In this document: in pieces, positions 10,378-16,635 of the stretch
Layout: each line of letters begins with the position of its first letter
How positions within the stretch are numbered: position 1 is the first letter of the stretch
Source: Bacillota bacterium
GTDB lineage: Bacteria > Bacillota > Limnochordia > Limnochordales > ZCTH02-B6
Assembly: GCA_017656145.1 (NCBI GenBank)
Contig: JACDOI010000027.1
Coordinates: 1 to 33,273, forward strand
Direction: 5' to 3'
DNA length: 33,273 bases
The notes under the pieces: generated by a model
The model's database searches: none
What the model was told of the DNA's origin: nothing
The model's input: the letters and a program-made list of their open reading frames with translations, nothing else
Translations under genes and position numbers: made by a program

Positions 10378-12225
10378 ATGCGGTTCCCTCAAGACGTCAT
10401 CGACGAGATCCGCAGCCGGGTGGACATCGCAGAGGTCGTGGGTGAGTACGTCGCCCTCCGCAAAAGCGGGCGGAACTGGGTAGGCTTGTGCCCGTTTCAT
10501 GCTGAAAAGACCCCTTCCTTTACAGTCAGCCCCGAGCGGCAACTGTTCTACTGCTTTGGCTGCCAGGCCGGGGGCGATGTGTTTGCCTTTGTGATGAAGC
10601 GGACGGGAATGGGATTCGCCGAAGCGGTGGAGCACCTGGCCCGCCGGGCCGGGATCGATCTTTTGCGATTCGCGGCCTCGCCGGAGGAAGAAGAGCGGCT
10701 TGCCCGCAGGGGGCGGCTGTTGGAAGTTCACCGGCTGGCTGCCGGGTTTTTCGCGCGCGCCCTAGAGAGCGGCCAAGGGCGGGCGGCCCGGGCGTACTTG
10801 GAGCGCCGGGGGATATCGGCGGAGATGATCCAGAGATATCAGCTGGGCTACGCGCCGCCCGGCGATTCCCTCGCGCGGTTTCTCCGGGATCAGGGGATTG
10901 ACGACGATGTGGCAGTAGAGGCAGGTTTAATTATCCCCGCAAGCGACGGCCGGCAACCGTTTCCCCGGTTCCGGGACCGGTTGATGTTTCCCATCGCGGA
11001 TTCGGCCGGCCGGATCGTCGGATTCGGTGGACGGGTGCTGGGCGAGCGCAAACGGGCACCCAAGTACCTGAACTCCCCGGAAACGCCGCTTTTCAGCAAA
11101 GGCCGGGTGCTGTACGGGTTCCACCTGGCCAAGGATGCCATCGCCGCCTCAGGCACCGCGATCATCGTCGAGGGGTACACCGACTGCATCAGCCTGGTTC
11201 AGCACGGCTTGCCCAATACGGTCGCGTCTTTGGGCACGGCCTTCACCGAAGCCCAAGCGCAGCTGCTCGCGCGGGTAGCCCAGCGCGCGGTCATCGCCTT
11301 CGACGCGGATGCAGCCGGGCAGGCGGCGGCCGAGCGGAGCCTCAACCTGTTGCGGCGGACCGGCTTGCGGGTGGCTGTCATGGAGCTTTCGCCGGGCCAA
11401 GACCCGGATCAGTTTGCCCAAACCCGCGGCCGAGAGGCCCTTCAGGAAGCAGTGCGCACCGCGGTGCCGCTGCTCGAATACAAGTTGAACAAGGTGCTGC
11501 CGGCCGAGGCTCCGGCCGACCCGGAGGGGAAGGTACGGGCGGTCGAAGCCGCGCTGGCGGTCTTGGGGGAAGTGGAGAGCCCCGTTGAGCGGGAGGCGTA
11601 CACCGAAGTCGTTGCCCGTCGCATTGCTGTACCTGTCGCCAGCGTCCGGGCAGAGCTTGGCCGCTGGCAGGCAATGCGGTCCAGCAGAGGCAAGATGCAG
11701 TATACGGCGGGAAAAAACCGCCATAATAATAGAGGTTTTCACGTCCACCGCAGCGAACACACATCCCGCGGCCGGCCTGTCGTTTCAGGTGAAGGAGGAA
11801 ATCGGCTGGCCAGCGCCGAACAAGTGGTCCTTCGACACGTCCTGGCGGCCGGGGATTGCCCGGGGGCGCGCGAGCTCCTGAACGAGCGGGAGGTATGGTC
11901 GAGCCCCATGGTGGGCCGGGCGGCGGCGCTGTTGCGGGATCGCTTGGAAGGCCCGTCCGATCCGGCCCAGTGGCTGTCCAGCCTGCCTCCCACGCCGGAG
12001 GCCGCTTGGTTGCGGGACCTGTGGGCGAGGACGGGAATGGCCCGGATCGCGTGGGAAGAGGCGCGCCGGGAATTGTTGCGCGAGCGAGCCAGGGAGAAGC
12101 TCGGCCGGCTGGAGGCGCAACTTGGTGCTGTGATGAAGGCGGTCTTGCCGGACGGGGCCGCCGGTATGCTGGCGAAGCTCTTGGTCGAGTATAAAAGGCT
12201 AAGGAGCGACCTTGTGGGTGGGTGA
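10378..12225 (+). CDS. dnaG: DNA primase DnaG
   Basis: DnaG synthesises RNA primers at the replication fork in concert with the replicative helicase. Counted from the ATG at 10378 it has 615 residues. An N-terminal CHC2 zinc ribbon (C38, H41, C59, C62) is followed by the polymerase core with TOPRIM motifs (E265 in IVEGYTD; D309 and D311 in FDADAAG) and a C-terminal region that should bind helicase. B. subtilis primase begins at the equivalent of this ATG. A GTG at 10345 after GGAAGGA would add 11 residues. The linker near residues 438-475 is locally AT-rich and holds an A-run in a small hairpin and a strong internal Shine-Dalgarno; both are reported as findings. The stop overlaps a possible rpoD GTG. 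Confidence 0.96.
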
Positions 12226-12254
12226 GCAACGGGGTACGAAAGGGGGGAGGCGCC

Positions 12255-13379
12255 ATGACCGACCGGGACACGAACGGGCCGCGTCTGCCGGATCAGGAGA
12301 CCATTGACGAGCTCATGCAGCGCGGCAAGCGCCGGGGCGCGCTCACATACCGGGAGATCATGGACGCGCTGCAAGAAGTTGAGCTTTCCCCCGAGCAGAT
12401 TGACGAGGTGTACGAGAGGCTGGCCAGCCAGGGTATCGACGTCATTGCAGACGGAGCCGACGCGGACGCATTCATCGACGGGGAGGACGACGAGGACAAT
12501 GGCCTTCCCGCGGACCCGGCGGCCGTCGACCTCAGTGTGCCCGAAGGCATCGGCCTGGATGACCCGGTGCGCATGTATCTCAAGGAGATCGGTCGCGTGC
12601 CGTTGCTCTCCGCCGAGGAAGAGATCGAGCTGGCCAAGCGCATCGAGCAGGGGGACGAGGAGGCCAAGCGCCGGCTGGCTGAGGCCAACTTGCGGCTTGT
12701 GGTCAGCATCGCCAAGCGGTACGTGGGGCGAGGCATGCTGTTTCTCGACCTGATCCAGGAGGGCAATCTCGGGCTCCTCAAGGCGGTTGAGAAGTTCGAC
12801 TACCGCAAGGGGTTCAAGTTCAGCACATACGCGACGTGGTGGATCCGGCAGGCCATCACCCGGGCTATCGCTGATCAGGCCCGGACGATCCGCATCCCGG
12901 TCCATATGGTGGAGACCATCAACAAGCTGGTCCGGGTTCACCGCCATCTCCTGCAGGAGCTGGGACGGGACCCGACGCCCGCGGAGCTCGCGGAGCGGAT
13001 GGGGCTCTCCGAGGATCGGGTGCGGGAGATTCAAAAGATCGCCCAGGAGCCCGTGTCACTCGAGACGCCCATCGGCGAAGAGGAAGACAGCCACCTGGGC
13101 GACTTCATCGAGGATCAGGAGGCGCCGGCGCCGGCGGAGGCGGCTTCGTACCTGATGCTCAAGGAGCAACTGGAGGACGTCCTCGACACGTTGACGCCGC
13201 GCGAGGAAAAGGTGCTGCGCCTGCGGTTTGGGCTCGACGACGGAAGGGCCCGGACGCTGGAAGAGGTCGGGCAGGTGTTTGGCGTCACTCGGGAGCGAAT
13301 CCGGCAGATCGAGGCCAAGGCTTTGCGGAAGCTGCGTCATCCCAGCCGCAGCAAGAAGCTGAAGGACTTCCTGGATTGA
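12255..13379 (+). CDS. rpoD: RNA polymerase primary sigma factor (SigA/RpoD)
   Basis: The housekeeping sigma factor, which directs RNA polymerase to -35/-10 promoters such as those seen before the tRNA genes here. The 374 residues are close to B. subtilis SigA (371). Region 1.1 lies at about 10-65, an acidic linker follows, then region 1.2 ([22 protein letters not shown]), region 2 ([27 protein letters not shown] and the [10 protein letters not shown] melting helix), region 3, and region 4 with the helix-turn-helix [18 protein letters not shown] near the C-terminus. The ATG follows AGGGGGGAGG (12241-12250). An upstream GTG at 12222, overlapping the dnaG stop in GTGA, would add 11 residues. 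The dnaG-rpoD pairing is standard in Bacillota. Confidence 0.97.
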
Positions 13380-13387
13380 GCTCCTGT

Positions 13388-13417
13388 TTGACACCCGCAG
13401 ATGGGAAAACCTATAAT
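13388..13417 (+). promoter_or_regulatory. Consensus sigma-A promoter for tRNA-Asn and the CAT-anticodon tRNA
   Basis: TTGACA (13388-13393) and TATAAT (13412-13417) are both perfect consensus hexamers, separated by 18 bp. They lie directly after rpoD and about 66 bases before the first tRNA. Transcription should start near 13424, leaving a GC-rich leader of about 60 bases. Confidence 0.85.
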
Positions 13418-13483
13418 GAGGATGCGGCTACGGCGATATCCAAAGCGGGCGCGCGGCCGCCGAGCCAGCGCGCCCCGGTACGT

Positions 13484-13558
13484 TCCTCGGTAGCTCAACG
13501 GTAGAGCGCCCGGCTGTTAACCGGAGGGTTGCAGGTTCGAATCCTGCCCGAGGAGCCA
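13484..13558 (+). tRNA. tRNA-Asn (anticodon GTT)
   Basis: The cloverleaf is complete: acceptor TCCTCGG (13484-13490) pairs with CCGAGGA (13548-13554), the discriminator is G, and CCA is encoded (13556-13558). The D arm is TAGCTCAACGGTAGAGC. The anticodon loop CTGTTAA gives anticodon GTT at 13516-13518. The T arm contains GGTTCGAATCC. A GUU anticodon reads AAC/AAU asparagine codons. Confidence 0.95.
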
Positions 13559-13564
13559 GTTTGC

Positions 13565-13640
13565 GGGCCCATAGCTCAACGGTCAGAGCAGCGGACTCAT
13601 AATCCGTTGGTTGCAGGTTCGAATCCTGCTGGGCCCACCA
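13565..13640 (+). tRNA. tRNA with CAT anticodon, probably tRNA-Ile2 (lysidine-modified)
   Basis: Acceptor GGGCCCA (13565-13571) pairs with TGGGCCC (13630-13636), with discriminator A and encoded CCA. The anticodon loop CTCATAA gives CAT at 13598-13600. It is not initiator tRNA: the acceptor stem is fully paired and the three G-C pairs of the initiator anticodon stem are absent. The AGCAGCGGACTCATAATCCG region and C4-G69/C5-G68 acceptor pairs resemble tRNA-Ile2, whose C34 is converted to lysidine by TilS to read AUA, more than elongator tRNA-Met, whose loop is usually TTCATAC. Elongator Met remains possible. Confidence 0.9.
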
Positions 13641-13650
13641 GCGGCTTTTT
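13626..13650 (+). terminator. Terminator-like hairpin overlapping the end of the CAT tRNA
   Basis: CTGCTGG (13626-13632) and CCAGCGG (13638-13644) can form a 7-bp stem (one G-T pair) with a 5-base loop, followed by CTTTTT (13645-13650). This is a short intrinsic-terminator layout, but the left arm is inside the T and acceptor stems of the tRNA, so it competes with tRNA folding. Confidence 0.4.
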
Positions 13651-13656
13651 CACATC

Positions 13657-13724
13657 GGGGATGCCGGCCGGCGGCGACCGGCCCGGGATATGCGAAGGCC
13701 GCCGGCACCCGATCGCCGATCCCC
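13657..13724 (+). repeat. Nested inverted repeats between two tRNA transcription units
   Basis: GGGGAT (13657-13662) with ATCCCC (13719-13724) encloses TGCCGGC (13662-13668) with GCCGGCA (13701-13707), followed by ATTTG, which runs into the -35 of the next promoter. The structure could help terminate the tRNA-Asn/Ile2 transcript. Confidence 0.35.
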
Positions 13725-13726
13725 AT

Positions 13727-13755
13727 TTGACAGAGCGGGCGGGCGGCGTTACAAT
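13727..13755 (+). promoter_or_regulatory. Sigma-A promoter for tRNA-Glu
   Basis: TTGACA (13727-13732, perfect) and TACAAT (13750-13755, 5 of 6) are separated by 17 bp, 22 bases before tRNA-Glu. Transcription should start near 13762. Confidence 0.85.
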
Positions 13756-13777
13756 AATAAAGGTTTGTTCAAGGTAG

Positions 13778-13853
13778 GCCCCCATCGTCTAGCGGCCTAG
13801 GACACCGCCCTTTCAAGGCGGCGGCACGGGTTCGAATCCCGTTGGGGGTACCA
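13778..13853 (+). tRNA. tRNA-Glu (anticodon TTC)
   Basis: Acceptor GCCCCCA (13778-13784) pairs with TGGGGGT before discriminator A and encoded CCA (13851-13853), with a G-T pair at the end. The anticodon stem CCGCC/GGCGG encloses loop CTTTCAA with TTC at 13812-13814. The T arm is CACGGGTTCGAATCCCGT. It has its own promoter. A short GGGCC/GGCCC hairpin at 13858-13876 followed by TTAT may end the transcript. Confidence 0.95.
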
Positions 13854-14012
13854 AATCGGGCCGAGACCTGAGGCCCTTATGTTCAACCCCGAGCGAGCAT
13901 GCGCGCGGGATGGAACGAATTGCCCGGAGGGGAGAGGAGTTCCACCGTGGCCCTGCGAGCGCGGGGTTAACTGTTCTCCGGGGGCTGAGAATGCGGACGG
14001 ATCTTACCAGTG

Positions 14013-15197
14013 TTAACTCGCCGTGCTTTGATCCGTTCTGGGGCTCCCAACGAGCATGGAGACGAACTCATCTTCATTTAGAACTGGAATACCGAGCTCG
14101 CGTGCCTTTTTGACCTTATTGCCGAAGCCGTCACCGGCTACAACGAAGTCCGTTCTTCGCGAGACGCTACTCGTGCAACGAGCCCCAAGGAGTTCAAGCA
14201 GTCGTTGAGCCTCTGCTCGCGTCCAGCGCTGGAAACGGCCGCTGAGTACGACCCGCTTGCCTTCAAGCGCCTCCCGGCAGATCGCGGCTCCGTGTAAGCC
14301 AGGAACATTGAGGAGATCCTCCAGGGTCATGTCTTCCAGAGCAGTAGAGGATGGCGTGGTTCTATGGGTACGGCCGTCTAAAAGTTCCTTTAGATAAGTG
14401 TGGCCGTGTTTGGTTGGAAGATTGAGCAGTTCAAGGGTGGCCCGCGCGTCATCGAGGGCACGATGTTGTTGCCGGGAAATGTTATGGCAAAGAAGCAGGT
14501 AGGAGAGACGACCTGATCGGAAACCATGTGCGCGCCAATTGATTTCCTTCAGCGAACAGCGCCACGGCTTGGATGCCGCTAGGGGATATCTGCGGGTTAC
14601 GAAAGCCTTATCGAACTCAGCGTTATGAGCGATAATAAAATCGGCCCGCGCGATCAAGGCGGCTACGGCATGGTCGTCAAGCGCGCGCCCTTTGACGTCT
14701 TCGTTCGACAATCCGTGGAGATTCGTCAAAAACTCAGGGATTGGGCGGTTAGGTTCTTGCAGGCCGGTGTATTCTTCAGCTACTTCGAGAACCTTGCCGG
14801 TCCCGCGGTGGAACGAAAAAAGGACTATTGCCAGTTCGATAATCTCATCCCGGCGCGGGTCAAGTCCGGTTGTTTCGACATCCATAACGGCCGCAACGCC
14901 GGTTTCCCCCTCTCGGGCTTGTGCCGAAGAACGGTCGGCGTGCACAAAGCCGGTTGGAGGTCGTGAAGGGGAGGCCTTGCCAGCGTTAGGCTCCGGCTCG
15001 GACACGCGCGGACCCGCGTGTTGTCGTTTCGCCCGGCGGGGAACTATCAGCAATGCGAGGAGCGCAACGACAGCGAATGCCGGGTACTGTCCGTCAATGA
15101 GCATTCCCAGTGCCGACAAGCCGAACAAGGCGGCAAGGACGTACCGGATGAAAGCGATAAACCTGCGCACGGTCACCAGCCCGTCAACCGCGGACAC
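14013..15197 (-). CDS. Membrane-anchored DEDDh 3'-5' exonuclease with C-terminal BRCT domain
   Basis: This is a 394-residue three-part protein. (1) Residues about 13-53 contain two hydrophobic helices with a short GQYPA turn, followed by a basic stretch (PRRAKRQH) and a low-complexity linker, suggesting a membrane hairpin with the rest in the cytosol. (2) Residues about 100-258 form a DnaQ/PolC-epsilon-type exonuclease with D106 and E108 (MDVETTG), D196 (AHNAEFD), and H245 with D250 (HRALDDA), so it is probably catalytically competent. (3) Residues about 311-383 form a BRCT domain like that of NAD-dependent DNA ligase (GKRVVLSGRF, SVSRRTDFVVAG, GIPVLNEDEF). Nucleic-acid trimming or repair at the membrane is inference. 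The start is GTG with only a weak AAAGG close by. Base composition is visibly less GC-rich than the flanks, and it lies beside a tRNA cluster, so acquisition by transfer is possible. Confidence 0.85.
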   Translation of the reverse strand: MSAVDGLVTVRRFIAFIRYVLAALFGLSALGMLIDGQYPAFAVVALLALLIVPRRAKRQHAGPRVSEPEPNAGKASPSRPPTGFVHADRSSAQAREGETGVAAVMDVETTGLDPRRDEIIELAIVLFSFHRGTGKVLEVAEEYTGLQEPNRPIPEFLTNLHGLSNEDVKGRALDDHAVAALIARADFIIAHNAEFDKAFVTRRYPLAASKPWRCSLKEINWRAHGFRSGRLSYLLLCHNISRQQHRALDDARATLELLNLPTKHGHTYLKELLDGRTHRTTPSSTALEDMTLEDLLNVPGLHGAAICREALEGKRVVLSGRFQRWTRAEAQRLLELLGARCTSSVSRRTDFVVAGDGFGNKVKKARELGIPVLNEDEFVSMLVGSPRTDQSTAS

Positions 15198-15225
15198 TGC
15201 CTTTTAGCGGGAACTTACCTTCACG

Positions 15226-15234
15226 AGTATATCA
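15226..15234 (-). promoter_or_regulatory. Extended -10 element upstream of the exonuclease gene
   Basis: On the minus strand the bases read TGATATACT: a TATACT hexamer (5 of 6) preceded by the TG of an extended -10, about 29 bases before the GTG start. No convincing -35 lies 16-18 bp further upstream, as is common with extended -10 promoters. Confidence 0.4.
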
Positions 15235-15309
15235 TGACCTGTCGATGGCCAGCACGATCGTGTCCGCAAGGCCAGGGATCGGACCGCGGGCGGCGAATCC
15301 TTCATCAAT

Positions 15310-16635
15310 GTGAGCCGTTCTCCATGGGCATGGCAACCGCCGAAAGAAACGGTCGTCCTGGGACCTCCGGAGAGCCCGCCGGATGCCCGCCTGGCCGTTC
15401 CCGGATCCAAGAGCGCGACGAACCGGGCGTTGATTTTGGCCGCGCTGGCCCGGGGTTCGTCGCGCCTTGAGGGCGTCCTGAAAAGCGACGACAGTTACTG
15501 GTGCGTGGCCGCCCTTCGCACCCTCGGCGTAGAGGTGCAGGTCGAAGGTACGGCTGCGGTGGTGCAGGGCTGCGGTGCCCGGTGGCCCAACCCGGCGGCC
15601 CGCGTCTACCTCGGTTCCGCGGGCACGTTGGCCCGGTTTTTGCCCGGGGCGCTGGCCGGGGGCCGTGGCGGTCAGTGGGAACTCGACGGCAGCGAACAGC
15701 TGCGGGGCCGGCCGATTCGGCCGCTCGTCGACGCGCTGCGGTCGTTGGGCGCGAGCGTCGAATACCTCCAAGAGGACGGGGCGCTGCCGATACGGGTGCG
15801 CGCCGGGCTTGCAGGCGGCCGGGTGGCGGTTCCGGGCAACGTTTCCAGCCAGTTCACCAGCGGCGTGCTGCTCGCAGCGCCTCTGGCCCGATCGCCGGTG
15901 GAGGTGCGGGTGACCGGCAGGCTCGTGCAGCCGGAGTATGTGGGGCTTACGGTCCAGCTCATGCGGGCGTTCGGTGCTCGGGTGGAGGCCTCGGCGGATT
16001 TTTCCGTCGTGCGAGCGGAGCCGGGCGGGTATGAAGCCCGCGAAATGGAGCTTGAGGCCGACGCGTCGACCGCGTGTTACTTTCTCGCCCTGGCAGCGTT
16101 GACGGGAGGCCGGGTTCGAGTCACGAATGTCGGCTACCGGTCGTTGCAGCCCGACGCGCGGTTTGTCGATGTGCTCGAGCGGATGGGCTGTCGGGTCAAT
16201 CGAAACGGGGCGGGGCTCGAAGTTGCCGGCCCGGCCCGGCTGCGCGGCGGATTCGCGGCTGACATGCGCCCGATGTCGGATCAGGCGCTGACATTGGGTG
16301 CGGTGGCGGTGTTTGCCGACGGGCCGGTGACGATCACCGGCGTTGCCCACATCCGCCGTCACGAGTCCAATCGCATCCGCGTGTTCGCTTCCCAAATGGC
16401 CCGCCTCGGCGTGCAGGTCGACGAGCATGCCGACGGGTTCACCGTCCACCCTCGCGAACCTAAACCCGGTCCGGTTCTCGATCCGCACGATGACCACCGG
16501 CAAGCCATGGCTTTCTCTCTTCTGGCGGCTCGCGTCCAGGGCATTGCCATCCGCGATCCCGGTTGCGTCTCCAAGACATGCCCGCCGTTTTTTGAATTAT
16601 TGGCTGCCCTGGGGATAAACGCCCGTTACGTTTGA
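15310..16635 (+). CDS. aroA: 3-phosphoshikimate 1-carboxyvinyltransferase (EPSP synthase)
   Basis: AroA joins shikimate-3-phosphate and phosphoenolpyruvate in the sixth step of chorismate synthesis. The 441-residue protein has the two-domain inside-out alpha/beta fold signatures: PGSKSATNRAL near 31-41 with K34 in the substrate-binding position, GSAGTLARFLPG, the LDGSEQLRGRPIRPLVDAL block, a middle SSQFTSG motif, and the C-terminal DDHRQAMAFSL and PGCVSKTCPPF motifs. The wording is nearer to actinobacterial-type AroA (SxTNRAL) than to the classical PGDKSISHRA form. GTG at 15310 is the likeliest start, but no clear ribosome binding site precedes it and the frame is open upstream. It stands alone, without other aro genes, divergent from the exonuclease. 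Confidence 0.93.
   Translation: MSRSPWAWQPPKETVVLGPPESPPDARLAVPGSKSATNRALILAALARGSSRLEGVLKSDDSYWCVAALRTLGVEVQVEGTAAVVQGCGARWPNPAARVYLGSAGTLARFLPGALAGGRGGQWELDGSEQLRGRPIRPLVDALRSLGASVEYLQEDGALPIRVRAGLAGGRVAVPGNVSSQFTSGVLLAAPLARSPVEVRVTGRLVQPEYVGLTVQLMRAFGARVEASADFSVVRAEPGGYEAREMELEADASTACYFLALAALTGGRVRVTNVGYRSLQPDARFVDVLERMGCRVNRNGAGLEVAGPARLRGGFAADMRPMSDQALTLGAVAVFADGPVTITGVAHIRRHESNRIRVFASQMARLGVQVDEHADGFTVHPREPKPGPVLDPHDDHRQAMAFSLLAARVQGIAIRDPGCVSKTCPPFFELLAALGINARYV

Follow-up and report, generated by a model that had tools for sequence, protein, structure and literature searches.

Contig JACDOI010000027.1 of a Bacillota bacterium of the class Limnochordia (GenBank assembly GCA_017656145.1), analysed here from position 1 to 33,273 (the window), carries on its reverse strand a gene whose protein combines an N-terminal hydrophobic hairpin, a DEDDh exonuclease and a BRCT domain. 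We propose, with a probability of about one half, that this protein is an acquired or relocated membrane-tethered 3′-5′ exonuclease that would attack entering foreign DNA, as a factor of the defence or superinfection-exclusion type. The first-pass annotation had left the choice between repair, DNA uptake and defence open; the relatives described below narrow it, by inference, towards prophage-borne exclusion or defence. The gene is laid out as follows.

14013-15197, reverse strand: whole gene (predicted membrane hairpin, DEDDh exonuclease and BRCT), 394 amino acids, GTG start.
15033-15161, reverse strand: N-terminal hydrophobic hairpin, residues 13-55, with a DG turn and a PRR basic cap (hydropathy segments, AlphaFold2 helices, similarity to the hairpins of an HNH protein and a phage exonuclease).
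14907-15032, reverse strand: linker, residues 56-97, predicted disordered (predicted local distance difference test, pLDDT, mostly <50).
14364-14906, reverse strand: DEDDh exonuclease, residues 98-278, PRK09182-like, with D106, E108, D196, H245 and D250.
14049-14276, reverse strand: LigA-type BRCT, residues 308-383 (Pfam, NCBIfam and structure-sequence matches).

Both annotated domains were recovered. Pfam places RNase_T at residues 104-258 (E 2.3e-17) and BRCT at 311-380 (E 5.7e-14; 52.5 bits against a gathering score of 21.3, hence a member of that family), and with the RNase_T fold and the D, E, D, H and D residues all present, the exonuclease belongs to the DEDDh superfamily. D106, E108, D196, H245 and D250 are invariant in a 12-row and in a more diverse 14-row alignment (window protein included). 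The BRCT is closest to that of LigA, and at 1e-8 the solved structures similar in sequence comprise five DNA-ligase BRCTs and a PolC exonuclease. The best NCBIfam match is the 3′-5′ exonuclease subfamily PRK09182 (NF006615), a match confined to the exonuclease part (residues 93-276, 202.5 bits, E 6e-60) and slightly short of the cut-off of 207; the exonuclease is therefore PRK09182-like and not a member. The exonuclease-BRCT model PRK06063 spans residues 96-382 at 72.4 bits, far under its cut-off of 389. In the AlphaFold2 model (mean pLDDT 79.2, predicted template modelling score 0.54) the two domains are confident and the linkers disordered; fold matches found by Foldseek include PolC, DinG, DnaQ, TREX2 and TREX1. 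The window's genome yielded no further exonuclease of the PRK09182-like branch.

The two N-terminal hydrophobic segments claimed in the first-pass annotation are likewise borne out. At a Kyte-Doolittle threshold of 1.6, residues 16-34 (1.98) and 38-56 (1.61, marginal) pass, in a test that also gives one presumably false segment each to the window proteins we take to be RecO and MurG, and AlphaFold2 places helices at residues 3-34 and 39-50 with moderate pLDDT; together they predict a helical hairpin. Three basic residues precede the hairpin and five follow it, so that by the positive-inside rule both of its ends, and hence the enzyme, would lie in the cytoplasm. We infer that the enzyme is membrane-tethered and faces the cytoplasm. 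The GTG start is preceded, at a distance of 9 nt, by a stop codon in the same frame; alternative starts at residues 8 and 10 would keep the hairpin, those at 24, 27 and 32 would cut it and those at 65 and 85 would drop it.

The hairpin, as judged from its sequence, is a module shared by the window exonuclease, an HNH nuclease and a phage-borne exonuclease. Used by itself as a query against 60 genomes, the hairpin matched, in the window's own genome, the N-terminus of a 180-residue HNH protein (G000:C25:8821-9363; E 4.8e-5), the next best match elsewhere having an E-value of 0.066. When a two-row hidden Markov model of the hairpin was run against 299 genomes of the phylum, the single outside match below 1e-3 (E 1.7e-4) was the N-terminus of an exonuclease in genome G173, a protein that the exonuclease search, too, had picked out. 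When the sequences were shuffled 1000 times with the hydrophobic pattern preserved, 5, 0 and 0 of the shuffles attained the pairwise scores among these three hairpins. Homologues therefore do not always start after residue 55, since the hairpin stands at the N-termini of two other proteins.

The HNH gene adjoins an operon for a coiled-coil-like protein, an AAA_5 ATPase and a DUF2357-PDDEXK_7 nuclease, presumably McrBC-like; operon and HNH gene, the latter 117 bases further on and on the opposite strand, form a low-GC block (G000:C25:3898-9363, L103) with a GC content of 0.52-0.55, against 0.65 in a neighbour. A third apparent hairpin in the same genome (contig C12, E 0.2) was rejected, as the opposite long frame resembles by eye an ABC-F ATPase. 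On the phage contig of G173, two genes from the hairpin-exonuclease, lies a second hairpin protein with tetratricopeptide repeat (TPR) matches (L139:6033-6851), whose hairpin resembles weakly that of the G173 exonuclease (15 of 1000 shuffles score as high). Between the window hairpin and this second protein, or the phage hairpins of L295 and L300, the shuffle test demonstrated no relation.

The G173 exonuclease (L139:3654-5291) sits on a 38,728-base phage contig, from another family within the phylum, that is also present in IMG/VR. Counting over intervening genes, it is flanked by an integrase on one side and on the other by two genes, one ImmA-like (below cut-off) and one for an HTH_3 repressor. 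It resembles the window exonuclease in carrying an N-terminal hairpin of the same kind and in belonging to the same branch (41% identity in the alignment), and differs in that some 300 residues, with a weak match to TPR, separate its hairpin from the exonuclease domain and in that it has no BRCT.

Viral relatives were collected in two scans, the first seeded by the window protein and mostly membrane-free relatives, the second by membrane-bearing relatives; together they gave at least 107 relatives after identical cores were dropped. A viral scan with the window protein as the single query gave no match. All counts in this paragraph hold among the matches listed. The five best matches of the first scan (L160-L164) have a C-terminal membrane segment, and L165 and L166, which rank next, are without one; over both scans, seven of the eight best-scoring relatives, which are L162, L160, L262 (=L163), L263, L161, L265, L167 and L266 (=L164), have such a segment. 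These anchored exonucleases (L160-L164, L263 and L265) fall in the window's branch, and the domains of L160-L164 are 44-47% identical to that of the window protein. In contrast to the latter, their segment is C-terminal, although L160 shows one at the N-terminus too, and no BRCT match was obtained in the six scanned ones, L265 among them, that are without other domains. Six of the seven lie between a repressor gene, an ImmA-type gene or both on the one hand and a gene for an integrase or serine recombinase on the other. Among the 107 relatives, an integrase-like open reading frame (ORF) was found within 4.5 kb of 9 of the 12 with a membrane segment versus 7 of the 95 without (Fisher p 6e-7). 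The integrase queries were themselves drawn from membrane-bearing loci; leaving out the five contigs that supplied them gives 4/7 versus 7/95 (Fisher p 0.002). No viral flank is longer than 6 kb, and for L210 and L311, which are among the 12, the membrane call depends on a single N-terminal segment, possibly an artefact of the chosen start codon. A 'GC' just ahead of the C-terminal hydrophobic stretch recurs in five of the seven phage tails (L162, L163, L164, L263 and L265), and also in the tails of two chromosomal exonucleases, of genomes G107 and G060 (L146 and L148).

One phage protein of another exonuclease lineage, L218, shows a comparable arrangement: between a repressor and an integrase-like ORF it joins an exonuclease, a BRCT-like region (tblastn alignment to residues 105-386 of the window protein) and a terminal hairpin. 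Unlike in the window protein the hairpin is C-terminal; Pfam does not call the BRCT at 1e-3 and calls the integrase via its SAM-like domain only. Two exonuclease-BRCT proteins (L224 and L207) lie near helix-turn-helix-like and integrase-like ORFs and have no membrane segment.

Cellular relatives were assembled as 44 rows: 41 come from genomes of the phylum, the frames being fragmentary in two, and three are Bacillus-type loci, one of them identical to G318; G331, with a ligase-only match, was left out. The PRK09182-like relatives checked are, unlike the window protein, mostly without a membrane segment. Three contexts were chosen by eye and without a control: in G430 (L147:532-1719) an exonuclease of the same branch is fused to an EVE domain; in G060 (L148:1042-6965) a C-terminally anchored exonuclease stands in a row with a 1110-residue protein without a Pfam match and a gene with a SIR2 domain; and in G107 the exonuclease gene lies about 3 kb from PglZ and helicase genes. 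The first-pass annotation had described exonuclease-BRCT pairs as known in Bacillota. Twelve loci of the class fetched for this pair yielded nine proteins with both domains, two without a BRCT match and one without an exonuclease match. A membrane segment is absent from eight of the nine and possible, at the N-terminus, in L349. The pairs do occur as soluble proteins of 429-484 residues in which, as in PRK06063 and the window protein, a DEDDh exonuclease is followed by a BRCT, but their exonuclease is of another lineage than the window's (43-51 bits in the eight clearest).

The locus itself was described in the first-pass annotation as a landing zone for acquired genes. Its fixed points are as follows.

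12222-13379, forward strand: rpoD, encoding a sigma-70 factor, the conserved anchor on the left side.
13484-13853: tRNA-Asn, tRNA-Met and tRNA-Glu.
13778-13853, forward strand: tRNA-Glu, left neighbour of the exonuclease gene, no duplicated 3′ end found.
15310-16635, forward strand: aroA, encoding EPSP synthase, neighbour on the right; in genomes G002, G003 and G004 an EamA-type gene comes before it.

The exonuclease gene has a GC content of 0.576, a third-position value (GC3) of 0.589 and a codon adaptation index (CAI) of 0.472; the 21 other window genes, most of which bear presumed names, have GC3 of 0.758-0.843 and CAI of 0.633-0.759. The low GC content claimed earlier is thus confirmed, and the gene is an outlier in codon adaptation as well. 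Since the exonuclease core of G002 has a similarly low GC3 (0.593), this value alone neither dates the gene nor gives its source. In two sister genera (G003 and G004) the order is rpoD, tRNAs, EamA gene and aroA, without an exonuclease; in G002, of the same genus as G004, rpoD and aroA are on separate contigs, and the frame immediately upstream of aroA was judged EamA-like by eye. A search of the window's genome (98.95% complete) with the EamA protein of G004 gave no match, an empty answer that is weak by itself. The exonucleases of G001, G002 and G003 sit on contigs other than those with their rpoD and aroA. The odd composition, together with the EamA-type gene that the sister genera have at this place, argues that the gene was inserted or moved here; vertical inheritance at one locus in all close relatives does not hold, as the gene is absent from the locus in those that could be tested. 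No second genome of the window's genus was among those searched.

Insertion or relocation stands; integration targeted to the tRNA found no support: direct repeats within 13300-15500 are tRNA-internal or short matches only, so that a duplicated tRNA-Glu attachment site was rejected, and no integrase-like ORF was seen beside the gene. A same-branch exonuclease directly downstream of aroA in G005 (L100, about 3.8-4.4 kb) was read as chance, because G008, of the same genus, has none there. In G002 (L105:22-1343, contig C95) an array with a 61-base period, read as an array of clustered regularly interspaced short palindromic repeats (CRISPR), ends about 0.1 kb from the stand-alone exonuclease. The exonuclease trees, of which the first was disturbed by two long outgroup branches, have an unresolved backbone; the window protein groups with G249 (95/80) in the second. 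A single clade with G001-G003 is not rejected (p 0.4), nor is one with G173.

In the mechanism we propose, the hairpin would anchor the enzyme on the cytoplasmic membrane, at its inner face, through a flexible linker the DEDDh domain would gain access to 3′ ends of foreign DNA at or soon after entry, and the domain would degrade that DNA; the LigA-type BRCT probably aids the binding of broken or end-exposed DNA. The gene would then be a chromosomal member, with a BRCT added, of a group of anchored exonucleases that protect the lysogen or the host. As the anchored relatives occupy a prophage slot typical for exclusion genes, the window gene is a possible unrecognised barrier to incoming DNA. 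The relatives alone have this location; the window copy is chromosomal and lies outside any lysogeny module, with no integrase-like or repressor-like ORF seen adjacent.

Two known systems invite comparison. TREX1 and TREX2 have the DEDDh fold in common with the window protein (Foldseek 2.7e-7 and 2.8e-8), but TREX1 is eukaryotic and about 20% identical, and PolC, DinG and DnaQ rank higher. TREX1 has a membrane anchor. It is reported to clear cytosolic DNA. The superinfection-exclusion gene ltp of phage TP-J34 is, according to its description (PMC3952083), part of a lysogeny module and adjoins int; after it comes a putative metalloproteinase for which similarity to a cI-like repressor is stated. 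The likeness to the genes for membrane-anchored exonucleases is one of position in the module and of the membrane tether, not of mechanism. Among the matches listed, titles and abstract openings mention no membrane-tethered DnaQ-type exonuclease in a lysogeny module.

Several observations weigh against an exclusion or defence role. Ltp is a lipoprotein tethered to the outer face of the membrane that blocks injection (PMC3952083), and unlike the window protein it is not a nuclease. A membrane segment was found in 4 of the 44 cellular rows, N-terminal in G173 and G434 and C-terminal in G107 and G060. Within the top eight viral relatives L167 has no membrane segment, no integrase was detected in the flanks of L263, and seven phage exonucleases are linked to an integrase without having a membrane segment. 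The tree test does not reject common descent of the exonuclease with the same-family copies. The exact succession of hairpin, exonuclease and BRCT was found in no other record of those searched: at 80% query cover it was absent from all 500 matching plasmid records and all 159 matching phage records, and a genome-contig scan with the window protein, which finds close relatives only, gave six loci, none aligned beyond residues 104-284. Finally, the PADLOC candidate PDC-S48 matches the window protein in two stretches (E 3.4e-33) but also matches nine of nine other exonucleases tested, so that we judge the match unspecific. PDC-S48 was not found in the PADLOC literature among the matches listed.

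The chief rival is a repair or replication exonuclease, since soluble exonuclease-BRCT proteins, eight of them clear, occur in the class. Its BRCT would recruit it to nicks or damage as in those proteins and in LigA, and its hairpin would place it near membrane-bound nucleoid or be incidental. The closeness of the BRCT to LigA and the span of the PRK06063 model, for all its low score, fit this role. We nevertheless consider it rather unlikely, as the hairpin is common to a phage exonuclease and an HNH nuclease and the gene is a sporadic, inserted one of odd composition. That same composition, with the gene standing single and without a partner, would suit a mobile-element remnant, stranded or in decay, that has no present function, a reading to which we assign a low probability given that the frame is open and the catalytic residues are intact.

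It is slightly less probable still that the hairpin lies outside the real protein and that the product, started at residue 65 or 85, is a soluble exonuclease-BRCT. Both codons are GTG, the annotated GTG has no ribosome-binding site obvious by eye, and the second hydrophobic segment is marginal; yet the same hairpin is N-terminal on two other proteins, with a similarity that goes beyond the hydrophobic pattern in the shuffles given above. Least probable, in our estimate, is the processing of transforming DNA in natural uptake, or nutrient scavenging. The predicted membrane position would suit it, but the predicted orientation is cytoplasmic, the relatives sit in phage lysogeny modules and no competence gene was seen by eye beside the gene (an inspection of the window only; the genome was not searched for competence genes).

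Beyond the single gene, we tentatively suggest a wider class, and hold it somewhat less probable than not. Membrane-tethered DEDDh exonucleases may be an unrecognised, recurrent class of prophage exclusion factors, in which more than one exonuclease lineage has gained hairpins at the N-terminus or anchors at the C-terminus, and sometimes a BRCT, in the slot between repressor and integrase, and which would digest entering DNA at the membrane as prokaryotic TREX1-like enzymes; the window gene would be a chromosomal, BRCT-bearing member. The hairpin, with its DG turn and basic cap, offers a handle for finding further nucleases placed at the membrane; the HNH protein in the window's own genome would be one. 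If the suggestion is true, there would be a reason for the presence of DEDDh exonucleases beside phage repressors, and a nuclease fold usually filed under proofreading or repair would also serve as a membrane barrier encoded by prophages and hosts.
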